A stretch of 44,344 nucleotides of DNA from a bacterium. Its GTDB lineage: Bacteria; Patescibacteriota; Minisyncoccia; Sungbacterales; GWA2-42-14. Shown here one piece after another: positions 27,152-32,907 of this stretch. The DNA lies in assembly GCA_030649305.1 (NCBI GenBank), contig JAUSFV010000003.1:1-44344 (forward strand), read 5' to 3'. A program made the position numbers and the translations under genes. How positions within the stretch are numbered: the stretch's first letter is position 1; each line of letters opens with the position of its first letter. Under the pieces are notes generated by a model, which was not told the DNA's origin, ran no database searches, and saw nothing but the letters and a program-made list of their open reading frames with translations.

Positions 27152-27181
27152 TTGAGGGCGATGTTGGAACATCGCCCTCAA
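27152..27181. terminator. bidirectional-type terminator hairpin
   Basis: TTGAGGGCGATGT TGGA ACATCGCCCTCAA with flanking T/A tracts. Confidence 0.8.
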
Positions 27182-27210: not shown

Positions 27211-27627
27211 CTACGCGCTTGCCACGATCCTGCTGAGGATCTCGGCCTTGCTGTAGTGCTTAGCCGGCACCCTGGTCCCGCCGATATGGCGCAGGGCCTT
27301 TGCGTAGTCAAACCGGGTCGTCTTGAGCGAGCCGACGCCGAGAGCCGTCACGACCTCGTTGAGAACCGCGGGGAGCTCGGAAGCGCTCGTGACCTTGGAG
27401 AACCGATTCTGACCCGAATCGCCCGGCTGCTTCCAGCCAAACTCACGGGTGAGCTTGCGGCCGATGACCGTGGCACCCCTTGACATCCTCGGCTCAACCC
27501 GGATGCGATAGTGGCCGGGCGCAACCTCGCGCACCGCCACCGTGCCCCGAGCCGTCTTCGCAACACCGACATACTGATTCGTGCCCTCGGTTCCGACCAT
27601 CCTAAACCTGGACTTTGGCAACGACAT
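27211..27627 (-). CDS. hypothetical protein, 138 aa
   Basis: ATG preceded by AAAGGAGG; third gene of the dikinase-like/phosphatase operon. Confidence 0.65.
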   Translation of the reverse strand: MSLPKSRFRMVGTEGTNQYVGVAKTARGTVAVREVAPGHYRIRVEPRMSRGATVIGRKLTREFGWKQPGDSGQNRFSKVTSASELPAVLNEVVTALGVGSLKTTRFDYAKALRHIGGTRVPAKHYSKAEILSRIVASA

Positions 27628-27712
27628 GACTGCCTCCTTTTTCGTGCCGCTCCATTTTTTTCTTGCGTCAATGTGCGGCATGCACTAACGCATATATCCG
27701 ATATTATCGGAG

Positions 27713-28231
27713 TTACTGGTACTTGACCGGCAGTAGTACTCCCTTGAGAGCAAACACCGCCTTGATTTGTTCATGCGTTTCAACGGCATGGCCGCAATAT
27801 CTGCCGCGGGCAACCCCGACCGGATCCTTGATCCTCGGCTCGAGGACAGCGATGAGGGACGCGAGAAATGTTCCCGTCCGCCCATGGCCGCCGGCGCAGA
27901 AAGCAAGAATCCTGCGACCCTGTTTCAACTCATCTGCGACTCTTGCGATAAACAAAACCCAGTCATCGGGATCAGGAACACTGAAATCCCGAATGGGATA
28001 GTGCCAGATCTTCTCCTCCGGCACCATATCCGTAATGACTTGAGACAACTGTTCCTTAAACGGTATGACGAGGTCATACCCCTCAAGATCTTCCGGAGCG
28101 AAATACATCGTCCCGCCAAGAAACAGCTGATGTTGATACTTTCCTACCCGCACCGGGTCGCCCCGATGCGGTTGGTGAAGTTTGTGACCTGTACGCGCAC
28201 GCCGGGCACAAACCTGAACGTTTCCGCTCAT
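27713..28231 (-). CDS. dual-specificity/tyrosine phosphatase-like protein
   Basis: CX5R signature FCAGGHGRTGTFLASLIAV; SD GGAGG; ATGA overlap with upstream gene. Confidence 0.75.
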   Translation of the reverse strand: MSGNVQVCARRARTGHKLHQPHRGDPVRVGKYQHQLFLGGTMYFAPEDLEGYDLVIPFKEQLSQVITDMVPEEKIWHYPIRDFSVPDPDDWVLFIARVADELKQGRRILAFCAGGHGRTGTFLASLIAVLEPRIKDPVGVARGRYCGHAVETHEQIKAVFALKGVLLPVKYQ

Positions 28232-30492
28232 CGTGCCCTCCTTTCTCCTGCGTTGTTCACACGCACGTCTTTATCCCAAAGTCTTCCTTTTCCTTTCTGC
28301 CAAAGCATCGCCACTTCAGGAGATACATTGGGACTTTCCCAAAACGATTTCGGGGCGTCATATTGATAACTATCCCGATAATCATAATGGACTACTTCGA
28401 GTCCCGCGACCAACAGATCAATGGTCTTTTGACGATGCTTGCAATCAAGCTGATACTGCAACATATCTTCATTGGTTTCCGAAAGCATCCGGTGTTTATT
28501 GAAGAGACGGCCTCCGTTGTGACGAAGATCAAAAACTCTATCAGCAAACACCGTATCGTTCAACTCGCCACTCAAGTACTGAAGCCCCGCTTTCGCAATT
28601 GCCGCCCATCGTGGCCCGCCGATAGAGCCGCCCAACCACGTGTTAAACGCGGGAATGGCAAGCCGAAAAAATTCCTGCTGCATCTCGCGGTCTGCATTAC
28701 GAAGCCGGTTCACCACCGACATCTGTGCTTCAGACCGACCAGAGCGCGCATCCCGAACGCTAAATTTCTCCTGAAGCACTGCAAACTCAGCGCCTCTCCA
28801 TCGAGAACCTTCCCAACCGTGCCGCAATTCTCCGGAAACCGCAACGATGAGATAGGCGGCGAATACTTCCGCCGCTTCCCGATGTATGCGCGCCCGAAGT
28901 GCTCGCGACTCTTGCTCAAGGTCGGTACCAACAGCAACTGATGCCATGGCATCAGCGAGATAGAAGTTATTGAGGATTATATTTGCCGAATACTCGCGCT
29001 CCACCGCCGAGAAATCCACCCTCCCTCCGTATAACTCGGGCCGAAGCTCTTTCAGCCACTTGAGAAAGATGGAAATCTCTTTTTGGTCGGAACGATGCGT
29101 AAACGGCACGGACCCGAGCACAAGAAGCCCCAACGATCCGTCTACGGACACTGTGTCGCCTGCGGAAAGCAGAAGCCCCGACGATACGCTTGGAATGGGA
29201 CCCGCACCGACAACCGCGGGCTTCCCAAGTCCCCGAGCAACAACGGCAGGATGCGAAGTGGCACCGCCCGTACTGGTAACGATGGCAGATGCCACAAGCA
29301 TGCCGGGGAAATCATCCGGACTCGTCTCCGGCCGGATAAGCACAACCTGCTTTCCCTGCCCAGCGAATTCCTGGGCCTGCTCGGATGTAAACGCGACGAT
29401 GCCGACCGCAGAACCGGGCGAGGCAGGAATACCTTTTGCAAGGACCCGCTTACCCTCAATCGCAAACTGCAACGCGCGCGGATCAAACGTAGCCTGACAC
29501 AAACGCAGAGCTTCGACGTCATAAACCTTAATCTTGTCTACGGCATCCTGTTTCATGCAGCGCTTTTCCCAAACTGCCTGCACCGCAAACCGCGCTTCGG
29601 CAACAGGAGTGCGTTGTGCCACCCGATACTGCAGAATCCACAGCTTTCCCCGTTCAACCGTAAATTCAATCTCCACCACGTCATTCGTATGCCGTTCAAG
29701 AGCCTCCGCAAACTGCGTTAACTCTTGAAAGGCCTCGGGGTGACGTTTGGAAAAATTCGTAATGGGAAGTGGTGTAACACTGCCCCCAACCACATCTTCA
29801 CCCTGACCTCTCGGATGGAACTCGCCATAGTGATGGTTTTCTCCGGTCGCGACATTTCGTGAAAAGAAAACGCCCGACCCCGACATTTCGTCGAGATTGC
29901 CAAAGACCATGGCCTGCACGATCATAGCAGTTCCGAGATACTCGGGAATGCCATAGAACCTACGATACTTGACGGCGCGGTCATTCAACCACGACTGGCA
30001 GACCGCCTCAAAGGCGAGTTCCAGTTGTTCCCACGGATCATCCGACGCATCCGACCCCACAACTTTTGTGAAACTTTTCCGAAACCGCCGTACCGTATCA
30101 TCTACGAAACGATCGCCGCCAAACTTTTTAAGCGCTGGATGCGATCCTTCCGTCATCCCGAGATTGAGAATGCTATCCATCATCCCGGGTATTGACACGG
30201 GTGCGCCCGAACGAACTGACACGAGAAGCGGGTTTGAAGGATCTCCAAACCGCTTCCCGGTCTGCTTTTCAAGTGATGCAATACATCGCTTGATCTGCCA
30301 CTCGAGCCGCTTCGGGTATCGCGCATGCTCGAGATATGCGCGACACACGCCGGTTGTAATTGCAAAACCAGGAGGAACCGGCATTCCGAACCTAGTCATA
30401 GTAACAAGGCTCATCGCCTTGTTGCCGATCAAATCCGCAGTAGCATCGCCCGCCTCGTGAAAGAGGAAGGCGACCTGACGATTGCGAGCCAT
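28228..30492 (-). CDS. pyruvate-phosphate-dikinase-like protein lacking the PEP/pyruvate TIM barrel, with novel C-terminal domain
   Basis: ATP-grasp motifs (GNKAMSLVTMTRFGMPVPPGFAITT, VRSGAPVSIPGMMDSILNLGM, VEIEFTVERGKLWILQYR) and swivel phospho-His motif GGATSHPAVVARGLGKPAVVG; about 295 C-terminal aa unrecognised; SD GGAGGAG. Confidence 0.85.
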   Translation of the reverse strand: MARNRQVAFLFHEAGDATADLIGNKAMSLVTMTRFGMPVPPGFAITTGVCRAYLEHARYPKRLEWQIKRCIASLEKQTGKRFGDPSNPLLVSVRSGAPVSIPGMMDSILNLGMTEGSHPALKKFGGDRFVDDTVRRFRKSFTKVVGSDASDDPWEQLELAFEAVCQSWLNDRAVKYRRFYGIPEYLGTAMIVQAMVFGNLDEMSGSGVFFSRNVATGENHHYGEFHPRGQGEDVVGGSVTPLPITNFSKRHPEAFQELTQFAEALERHTNDVVEIEFTVERGKLWILQYRVAQRTPVAEARFAVQAVWEKRCMKQDAVDKIKVYDVEALRLCQATFDPRALQFAIEGKRVLAKGIPASPGSAVGIVAFTSEQAQEFAGQGKQVVLIRPETSPDDFPGMLVASAIVTSTGGATSHPAVVARGLGKPAVVGAGPIPSVSSGLLLSAGDTVSVDGSLGLLVLGSVPFTHRSDQKEISIFLKWLKELRPELYGGRVDFSAVEREYSANIILNNFYLADAMASVAVGTDLEQESRALRARIHREAAEVFAAYLIVAVSGELRHGWEGSRWRGAEFAVLQEKFSVRDARSGRSEAQMSVVNRLRNADREMQQEFFRLAIPAFNTWLGGSIGGPRWAAIAKAGLQYLSGELNDTVFADRVFDLRHNGGRLFNKHRMLSETNEDMLQYQLDCKHRQKTIDLLVAGLEVVHYDYRDSYQYDAPKSFWESPNVSPEVAMLWQKGKGRLWDKDVRVNNAGERRAR

Positions 30493-31028
30493 CAAGCTCC
30501 TCCTCTCCGCCCGGTTTCCGGGCATTTTATTCGTGAGTTTGTGAGACAGAAAAAGTACTGCCTTGTTTTTGGGGGTTGTCGCGTCAGAAAAATGCACGTG
30601 CGGTTTTTGTTTCCATGAGATCCGAAATATTCGGAGGGATCCTCACGTTCCCTTCTCGCCCGAGAACTGTTTTTCCGACACCTAGACGCTCCGAAAAAAT
30701 CAATTCGGCCCATCTCCCCAAAGCCTGATGTCTTGGTATCAAGCCTGTCTAACACCCGTATTCCAGCGGCTATTTTGTTAGCGGATTACGGTATATATAA
30801 GGCATAAAAAAGCCGCTGTAGAATGTTAGTCAAAGCCCGCCCTCAACCCTTGCTCTGATTGCCCAGAACGGCACTCGGCAGGTGCCCTTAAGAATGCCTT
30901 TCCTCCCAAGAAGAAAGACACGCACGAGTCATCAAGAAAACGGCAATATATTCTGATGACTGCTGTCGCGACCTCAGTAGAATTTTTTCAGAGGCCCGAA
31001 TTCCCGGCATGACCGGAACGCGGATTCA

Positions 31029-31307
31029 CTACCGCCAGCCTGCTCTTTTTGCGACCCCTCTTTCGTATCCCTCAAGAAGAGCATAGAAGGACTCTTTCGC
31101 CGGCGCATTTCCACCATACGCATCCGGCGTTTCGTTCCGGATATACACCCGGAACTTTTTTTGCGTGGCCAACTGATCGCGATTGGACCACCGCCCTTTT
31201 TGTTTTTTTCCGCAAAGCGTTTCCCTGGCGAGAGAAAACAACTTTTTGTACTCAAAACCCAAGCGAGCTCGCTTGGCGCACTCCGTTCCTTCCGGCGCTT
31301 GCTTCAT
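31029..31307 (-). CDS. possible small protein (92 aa) in operon leader
   Basis: ATG immediately after the TGA of a 16-codon ORF (TGAATG); composition plausible but no homologue recognised. Confidence 0.35.
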   Translation of the reverse strand: MKQAPEGTECAKRARLGFEYKKLFSLARETLCGKKQKGRWSNRDQLATQKKFRVYIRNETPDAYGGNAPAKESFYALLEGYERGVAKRAGWR

Positions 31308-31685
31308 TCACACCTCGGCAAGACAGACACGGATGCGATCTCGTGCCGTTTCCTCCATAAAAAACTATTTTTAAAATAGTTTTTAAATTTTGGATCGCGG
31401 CCTGTTACGGTCGGCAGCGCGCATAGAGGAGCCGCCCCTATGCACGGCGCTTATGTTATTCCGAGGATGCGGATATACATAAGCACGGAGATTTCCGGAT
31501 TGTCTTCACATACGCAAGAGCATCGTCTCCCCCTTGTCTCTTCGCGTACGCGCCTCATGCCCACTCCAACACCATCCTTGATGTCAAAGCTCTCGGGGTC
31601 ATTGCATGAGAATGGTTTTTTTCTGCGCTCTGAAGCGCAGTTTGTTTTCGCTCGGTGAGCCCCCGCTCTTACGAATCCCACGTTC

Positions 31686-31757
31686 TTAAACCCTAAAAAG
31701 GGCGACCGCAAGAATAAGAGTCGCGCCGAGCTTCATTCAATTATGATGGTTAATCAT
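31686..31757 (-). other. two short leader ORFs: MINHHN* and MKLGATLILAVALFRV*, joined by TGAATG
   Basis: AAAGGAGG SD located 9 nt upstream of the first ATG (31757). Confidence 0.4.
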
Positions 31758-31926
31758 TCTGACTAACCTCCTTTCTATCCTGCTTGCGGCAGGATTTTCT
31801 TTGTTAAGCAGCCTTCCGTTTCTGGACCGATCCTGCTCCTTTATAAAAACCAGAAAAAGTACGGGGTCGGTCCACCCAATTTTTACTTAAAATTGGGAGA
31901 AAAACGCTTATTAATATAATACTTAA

Positions 31927-31955
31927 ATTATAGCATAATTTTATAATAAAGTCAA
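31927..31955 (-). promoter_or_regulatory. strong sigma70-type promoter (P2) upstream of dikinase-like operon leader
   Basis: TTGACT-17-TATAAT on minus strand. Confidence 0.82.
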
Positions 31956-31999
31956 TAGATACATGGTTAAACGCAAAAAATCCTTCCTAAATGTTCTTT

Positions 32000-32036
32000 A
32001 AAATGGAACGGCTCACCTCCTGGGAGGTGAGCCGGT
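32000..32036 (-). terminator. strong hairpin/terminator candidate
   Basis: Minus strand CGGCTCACCTCC CA GGAGGTGAGCCG TTCCATTTT: 12-bp perfect stem, imperfect T tract. Confidence 0.55.
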
Positions 32037-32816
32037 ATAACGCATGATTCCGATAGGCATTTGTCGCATCAGGGCACATAATATTCCCCAACGCCTAGGT
32101 ATCGGAGTCAAAAACCAGAATCCGAAACCAGCCTAAGCCCTAAGGTGCCATTCCTAATACAGGGGGTAGTGGTAACGGACATAGCGTGGTGTGGTGTTTG
32201 GTATGGTGTTTGGTGTTTTTTTACATAATCAAATTTTTTTCAATAACCCCCTCTATCCGGACGGCCTTCCTTCCACCGCAATTGCCTGCGGCTGCGCTGG
32301 CCATACGCACTTTCTACCGTCTCTCACGAGTACGGCGTACTGTCTGTCAGACACCCGCGGGCGAGCAATCTCCCGCGAATCCTGTTGCCGCCTTATGCAG
32401 AGTAAGGCAACTCGCTCTTCTGGACATACGCATATTCCCCCCAAAGAGCCTTGAGGGATCCAAACGAAGAAGGGGTATCTGCCGTTCCCTCCTCTCCGAC
32501 ACTGCCTCTAGCTGACAGTGATTTTGCGCAAAGCGTTTGTCCCCTCCCGCTCTGCCGCCTGGTATGCGCCGGTAGAATAACAACAAAACCGGAACATACA
32601 GTCAGTTCTGCAAAGGAGTCGTGTTGGCGAAGCGTATTGTTATCCGCGCCTTCTCCTCGTCTCACTGGCCGCCTTTGGCGCTACCAGCTACACACGGATT
32701 AAAAACGCACACAACAACTCTCCGGCAATACGATTCTGCCCCCGCATCATTGACCCCCGGGGCTGGCTCACCCCGAAATTCCTTACAAAATTTTAAATGC
32801 TCATTAAAATGAGCTA
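32000..32816 (-). ncRNA. candidate ~0.8-kb non-coding transcript
   Basis: Bounded by a consensus promoter and strong hairpin; no convincing ORF; many local inverted repeats. Confidence 0.35.
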
Positions 32817-32821
32817 TTTAT

Positions 32822-32850
32822 ATTATAGACGATATATAAAAATTAGTCAA
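32822..32850 (-). promoter_or_regulatory. strong sigma70-type promoter (P1)
   Basis: TTGACT-17-TATAAT on minus strand. Confidence 0.82.
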
Positions 32851-32907
32851 TACCCCGTCTCAAGAACATCAAGGAGCCCTGAGTCGTGTGGATAAACAAA
32901 TAAAAAA

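Follow-up and report, generated by a model that had tools for sequence, protein, structure and literature searches.

What does a dikinase phosphorylate when the domain that binds its usual acceptor is absent? The question is raised by a three-gene operon on the minus strand at positions 27211–30492 of the window, i.e., the whole stretch of 44,344 nucleotides analyzed here, which encodes a dikinase::helical domain fusion, a CX5R phosphatase and a 138-aa protein (Table 1). The fusion contains the parts for ATP-driven His phosphorylation and lacks the usual acceptor domain; the swivel is followed by a conserved, predicted helical domain that carries a set of invariant polar residues, in the place of the acceptor barrel of pyruvate phosphate dikinase (PPDK). 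Judging from sequence, the three-gene set probably phosphorylates something new, because the front half of a dikinase is joined to a domain of predicted new shape and a paired phosphatase. We put at about even the chances that the operon represents a phosphotransfer module associated with phages and taken up by a small-genome bacterium, and not a PPDK, with a mechanism that we infer.

Translation of the open reading frames confirmed genes of 754, 172 and 138 aa where the original prediction had placed them, together with the predicted ATGA at 28228–28231, in which the dikinase TGA overlaps the phosphatase ATG, and the strong Shine–Dalgarno sequence of gene 3; ribosome-binding sites of the AGGAGG type precede all three genes. 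An impression of GC richness, gained by eye, was borne out by calculation: genes 1, 2 and 3 have 63.5%, 54.5% and 53.9% GC (GC3 of 0.81, 0.58 and 0.55) and are richer than almost all neighbours in the window, most of which lie at ~44–50%. This anomaly, the phage-borne fusion operons and the kinase tree support the separate origin that had been suspected for the three genes. The genome measures 1.02 Mb and is 94.7% complete; most of the listed genomes of the same phylum measure 0.5–1.2 Mb, so that we take the phylum to be one of small genomes, probably Patescibacteria. The operon is flanked by what we take, naming them by eye, to be ordinary bacterial genes (NAD biosynthesis, Nudix, transporter), and on the strength of these flanks, along with the same operon in two other genomes, we reject contamination of the genome bin as its source. 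Upstream of the operon, positions 30600–32900 are gene-poor and hold no long convincing ORF, and an Rfam scan of this region gave no match. The anti-phage defence models of PADLOC matched none of genes 1–3.

Table 1. Coordinates of the operon and its features in the window
Feature	Position	Strand	Basis
Gene 1 (P0001), PPDK-type kinase::helical domain, 754 aa	28228..30492	-	ORF and translation; PPDK_N, PEP-utilizers
ATP-grasp half, residues 1–345 (boundary approximate)	29458..30492	-	PPDK_N (PF01326), 1e-39; PPDK alignment
Phospho-His swivel, residues 346–470 (boundary approximate)	29083..29457	-	PEP-utilizers (PF00391), 1.6e-21
His414 codon, expected phospho-carrier, GGATSHPAVVARG	29251..29253	-	Position by script; aligned with PPDK GGMTSHAAVVARG motif
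C-terminal helical domain (predicted), residues 471–754, phrog_20946 family	28231..29082	-	PHROGs; custom phage profile
E-x-R-H motif (E555, R557, H558)	28819..28830	-	Invariant in 69 phage proteins and 5 fusions
D...H-N-x-G-x-x-F-N-K motif, D651–K666	28495..28542	-	D, H and K invariant in 85/85 copies compared
Gene 2, CX5R phosphatase, 172 aa	27713..28231	-	Tc-R-P, PTP-SAK, phrog_17568
Catalytic CX5R loop, C112–R118	27878..27898	-	C112 and R118 unchanged when aligned with the phage phosphatases
Gene 3 (P0003), 138 aa	27211..27627	-	Homologues beside fusion in G142, G726, L143, L144
Gene 1 ribosome-binding site, AGGAGGAG	30497..30504	-	Sequence
Gene 2 ribosome-binding site, AAGGAGG	28237..28243	-	Sequence
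Gene 3 ribosome-binding site, AAGGAGG	27633..27639	-	Sequence
Terminator-like hairpin, 13 pairs, just 3' of gene 3	27152..27181	-	Sequence

Pfam detected only PPDK_N and the PEP-utilizers swivel in gene 1 (Table 1), in agreement with the prediction of a PPDK-like ATP-grasp half and swivel without the PEP/pyruvate barrel. Alignment with PPDKs showed that K25, R94 in SVRSGA, the E276/E277 region and Q288/R290 are kept; the site roles of these residues are taken from what is known of PPDK. The PEP-utilizers_C barrel (PF02896) was found neither in the protein nor anywhere in the 94.7% complete genome, which has no PPDK_N besides gene 1; thus, an ordinary PPDK cannot be assembled from the parts seen. 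NF004531, which has 534 positions and is matched over ATP-grasp and swivel, is the only NCBIfam model whose cut-off gene 1 exceeds. Gene 1 scores 463 bits against a cut-off of 843 with the full-length PPDK model TIGR01828, and 41 bits against 999 with the rifampin phosphotransferase model NF041857. We reject a true PPDK on the missing barrel, the TIGR01828 score and a C-terminus of a different family, and rifampin phosphotransferase on its model score and the lack of a match to the rifampin-binding domain. Compared with its homologue in genome G142, the window protein lacks ~48 ATP-grasp residues at ~30048–30060 (P0001 residues 145–148), and the same gap is seen in genome G726.

The C-terminal domain of ~285 aa belongs to a family known from phages. 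Pfam run on residues ~456–754 alone gave no match to it, nor did the PDB sequence set; matches to DUF7222 and DUF2491 were too weak to be taken as homology. In PHROGs, phrog_20946, whose label names no function, matches gene 1 residues 539–701 (1.4e-14), and a custom profile of the phage phrog_20946 protein also matches the C-terminus. The description of this part as ~295 aa of unrecognised sequence therefore holds for Pfam and fails for PHROGs. A known PEP/pyruvate- or rifampin-binding domain, which the original prediction had proposed to look for in the C-terminus, was not matched in Pfam, NCBIfam, PDB sequences or a fold search of the phage homologue. For that homologue, gp142 of Stenotrophomonas phage DLP5, the predicted structure (70 rows; mean pLDDT 93.4, pTM 0.88) is essentially all-helical with a C-terminal strand pair. 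Foldseek of this model returned nothing better than E 0.75 from the PDB, and in a viral library only four full-length matches from its own family and one short protein stood out. The fold was modelled for the phage protein and is carried to the window domain by sequence homology; on this basis, the C-terminal domain of gene 1 is predicted to be all-helical and of a shape seen in no solved structure.

Within the domain, E107, G179, G180, W183, D205, H212 and K220 (DLP5 numbering) are unchanged in 85 of 85 copies. R109 and H110 show no change in any of the 74 copies linked to a dikinase, of which 69 are phage proteins and 5 are fusions. R and/or H is altered in five of the six bacterial copies unlinked to a dikinase, which are few and partly related, and the pair is mostly kept in five further viral contigs without PPDK_N, which may be fragments. 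The window domain has all residues invariant in the phage family (E, R, H, GG, W, D, H, N, K).

Named Stenotrophomonas, Rhizobium, Rhodobacter and Vibrio phages carry the phrog_20946 protein as a gene of its own (326–357 aa). A PPDK_N protein is encoded a few genes upstream of it, and one or two CX5R phosphatases lie next to it. Gene calling and HMMs gave the one-strand order dikinase–phosphatase 1–helical protein–phosphatase 2–P4. An IMG/VR profile search with the helical protein only yielded 77 loci, and 88 were counted over IMG/VR, named phages and 7 genome contigs, all fetched without requiring other module genes. Among these loci, which are related to each other so that the counts are not independent trials, the dikinase lies upstream of the helical gene in 72/72 with enough contig, a phosphatase upstream in 78/81 and downstream in 80/81, and P4 downstream in 80/80; all five parts are present in 63 of 65. 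This collinear set is a real, conserved phage-borne module. Annotated phage records with the helical protein number 40, and every one belongs to a phage of Vibrio, Stenotrophomonas, Rhizobium or Rhodobacter, the same groups in which the phage dikinase is found. The module occurs in cultured phages (Vibrio SIO-2, VHS1, Stenotrophomonas DLP5, Rhodobacter RcZahn), so its function is directly testable.

The corresponding phage set phrog_18609/phrog_17568/phrog_20946 (SIO-2, VHS1, DLP5, Rhizobium RHph_TM16, RcZahn) has been published as 'PPDK' plus tyrosine phosphatase. The window shares with it the kinase type, the helical domain, the phosphatase and probably the P4 part, in collinear order; unlike the phage set, it has the kinase and helical domain in one protein, a single phosphatase and a short P4-like part, and its kinase falls in a different clade. 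Sampled stand-alone phage dikinases extend ~120–210 aa beyond the swivel, compared with ~350 aa in typical full-length PPDKs; one phage 'pyruvate phosphate dikinase' (L023:3854-5803) has PPDK_N and swivel and no PEP-utilizers_C. The neighbourhood of the phage module includes a DNA polymerase and a CsrA-like protein, which is no more than a hint to the acceptor. In Vibrio phage VH2_2019, a CsrA-like protein (L008:8073-8555; PF02599, 1.9e-6) is encoded between the dikinase and the first phosphatase, where similar small genes were seen by eye in other phages.

The operon is also found elsewhere in its fused form. P0001 used as a single-sequence query gave no hit in IMG/VR or GTDB, and profile searches did find relatives: the kinase::helical fusion, phosphatase and P0003-like protein occur in the same order in G142, of the same phylum (42, 40 and 43% identity to window genes 1, 2 and 3), and in G726, of the same class and another family (59, 50 and 65%). 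The fusion operon is also present on the IMG/VR contigs L143 (an 89.7 kb record, with two P0003-like genes) and L144 (48.8 kb). These contigs are assigned to tailed phages because the L144 record carries a large terminase and portal, and the L143 record tail proteins, a tape measure and helicases. The co-occurrence of the three genes elsewhere, the other check that had been proposed, was thus found in two genomes, two viral contigs and the phage loci. In the kinase tree, the fusion kinases cluster together (100/99); the stand-alone phage dikinases (100/100) are separate from this cluster, and its neighbours are short bacterial 'PPDKs' (91/89). The tree is unrooted, and from it the pairing of kinase and helical domain would be either old or built twice.

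The identification of gene 2 as a CX5R phosphatase stands, with the CX5R loop (CAGGHGRT), the Asp of the acid loop (DFSVP) and two Pfam matches over the cut-off (Tc-R-P, 1.3e-8; PTP-SAK, 1.1e-7), along with phrog_17568 (2.7e-18). Gene 2 resembles DSP-type CX5R phosphatases (PTP-SAK, Tc-R-P) in both loops and differs from them in being tied to a dikinase module. In DLP5, the second CX5R phosphatase of the module (DLP05_143, L004:10592-11380) is annotated as 'thymidylate synthase thyx', a misleading label that phrog_17568 also bears.

Gene 3 had been described as an unknown small protein; the 138-aa ORF with its Shine–Dalgarno sequence is there, and it now has a probable phage homologue, P4. The P0003 family comprises members in the window, G142, G726, L143 (twice) and L144; a protein-level search of phages for P0003 gave no hit. 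Over 37 columns, the family profile aligns with the phage P4 domain (P=8e-6), with a score of 36.6 versus at most 17.6 in 200 column shuffles; P0003 alone matches P4 weakly, the match needing family profiles. Common descent of P0003 and P4 is likely, given this profile match and the equal place in the gene order. The P4 C-terminal domain is predicted (pLDDT 95.6) to have a beta-beta-beta-alpha-beta-alpha arrangement, and its model gave no significant match to PDB folds. In the fetched bacterial loci, P0003 relatives lie beside the dikinase fusion and not beside the domain–phosphatase pairs of G445 and G406.

Those pairs belong to a small group of bacterial copies of the helical domain, which was found in 4–5 of the 380 genomes of a phylum-wide sample and in 7 of the 384 of a class-wide one; it was not found in the plasmid collection. 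In G445 and G406, the domain adjoins or overlaps the phosphatase, with no dikinase beside it; it stands alone in G451 and G505 and ends other proteins in G085 and G306. No PPDK_N at all is present in G445, G451, G505, G488 and G306, and it lies in separate frames in G406 (1164 aa) and G085 (600 aa). The helical domain need not be only a dikinase acceptor domain and may have another role, since it is present in genomes without any dikinase. In three proteins, it follows other N-terminal parts without a Pfam name (L109:7005-9263, L110:1903-3165, L225:4338-6050), and on L225 a phosphatase gene comes after it.

The sequences show which domains are present, which residues are conserved, how the genes are ordered, that they co-occur and that phages carry them; from this we infer each reaction step and the acceptor. 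The ATP-grasp half would phosphorylate swivel His414 from ATP, probably in the PPDK manner with release of AMP and PPi, and the swivel would carry the phosphate to an acceptor bound at the C-terminal helical domain. There, a putative conserved site (E555, R557, H558, W629, D651, H658, K666) would bind and activate a non-pyruvate acceptor, which could be a nucleotide, nucleic acid, protein or small molecule. The CX5R phosphatase would take the phosphate off the product, making the modification reversible or corrected, and the P4-like protein may accompany the kinase as its partner or its target. A phosphotransfer module is suggested by the kept ATP-grasp and swivel motifs, the missing PEP barrel, the conserved phage order, the recurring fusion operon, the E/R/H residues invariant in dikinase-linked copies with R/H altered in five of the six unlinked ones, the GC anomaly, and the phrog_20946 homology without a PDB fold match. 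Against it count the extra 120–210 aa after the swivel of phage stand-alone dikinases and the relatedness of the phage loci; the transfer mechanism calls for caution because the domain, with or without phosphatase, occurs in genomes that lack PPDK_N. More tentatively, and at less than even chances, we propose an undescribed reversible phosphorylation system common to tailed phages and ultrasmall bacteria, in which a phospho-His swivel of the PPDK type would feed a new all-helical phosphotransfer domain and a CX5R phosphatase would counter it, the acceptor class (nucleic acid, protein or small molecule) being new for dikinases.

It is also possible, although less likely than not, that the helical domain acts on its own, as an enzyme or binding protein of the same pathway; the dikinase half would then supply or consume a phosphorylated metabolite, or phosphorylate the domain, and the fusion would only keep the two together. 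Such independence would explain the bacterial copies that are paired with a phosphatase without a linked dikinase, stand alone or end other proteins, as well as the two separate genes in phages; it accords less well with the fusion in five loci, a dikinase upstream in every phage locus with room, and an R–H pair kept in every dikinase-linked copy. We regard as very unlikely indeed a degraded or specialised PPDK, or another energy-metabolism enzyme as the phage genes are annotated: the 44–45% identity of the kinase half to PPDKs, the NF004531 match and the published phage annotation speak for it, but neither the protein nor the genome has PEP-utilizers_C, the TIGR01828 score is far below cut-off and the C-terminus is of another family. 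A foreign insertion that is decaying and no longer functions in this genome, for which one could cite the foreign base composition, the ~48 missing ATP-grasp residues and the few long ORFs just upstream, is very unlikely in view of three intact ORFs with good ribosome sites, a stop/start overlap and kept motifs, and of homologues 40–65% identical in the same order, one of which (G726) has the same gap.

With regard to known systems, gene 1 shares the ATP-grasp half, phospho-His swivel and their motifs with PPDK, but an unrelated helical domain replaces the PEP/pyruvate barrel. ATP-grasp and swivel are reused for non-pyruvate acceptors in rifampin phosphotransferase (Rph), phenylphosphate synthase, PigC/RedH and glucan water dikinase. 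In all of these, the acceptor part is unrelated to the helical domain of gene 1; in Rph, the swivel is C-terminal (match at 765–859 of 864), whereas that of gene 1 lies in the middle. If a phosphotransfer module of this kind exists, the dikinase family would gain a new acceptor branch.

Phage dikinases have been published as PPDK auxiliary metabolic genes interconverting pyruvate and PEP, with PEP docked into the supposed barrel (PMC12038007), and have been listed beside tyrosine phosphatases (PMC7326821). Open-licence literature on phage PPDK, RNA repair, NAD/ADPr systems and jumbo phages contained no description of the helical protein or the module; as far as we found, the dikinase–phosphatase–helical module is undescribed. 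If our reading is correct, phage 'PPDK' genes would do something other than pyruvate/PEP interconversion, since the phage protein scanned has no recognised PEP domain and these genes belong to a conserved module with phosphatases and a domain that resembles no known fold. The published docking of PEP to the phage barrel (PMC12038007) deserves re-checking.

The acceptors of the short bacterial 'PPDKs' also seem worth study. These proteins (NF004531; 506–568 aa in L130, L132 and L134) share the kinase part with gene 1, and some are its nearest kinase relatives outside the fusion clade; they lack the helical domain, and the loci shown contain no phosphatase gene. The examples annotated as 'pyruvate phosphate dikinase' that end after the swivel are L130:3414-4934, L132:3516-5084 and L134:3405-5111. 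Genes for PEP-utilizing enzymes lie near two of these short dikinases, and a pyruvate kinase gene lies beside the third.
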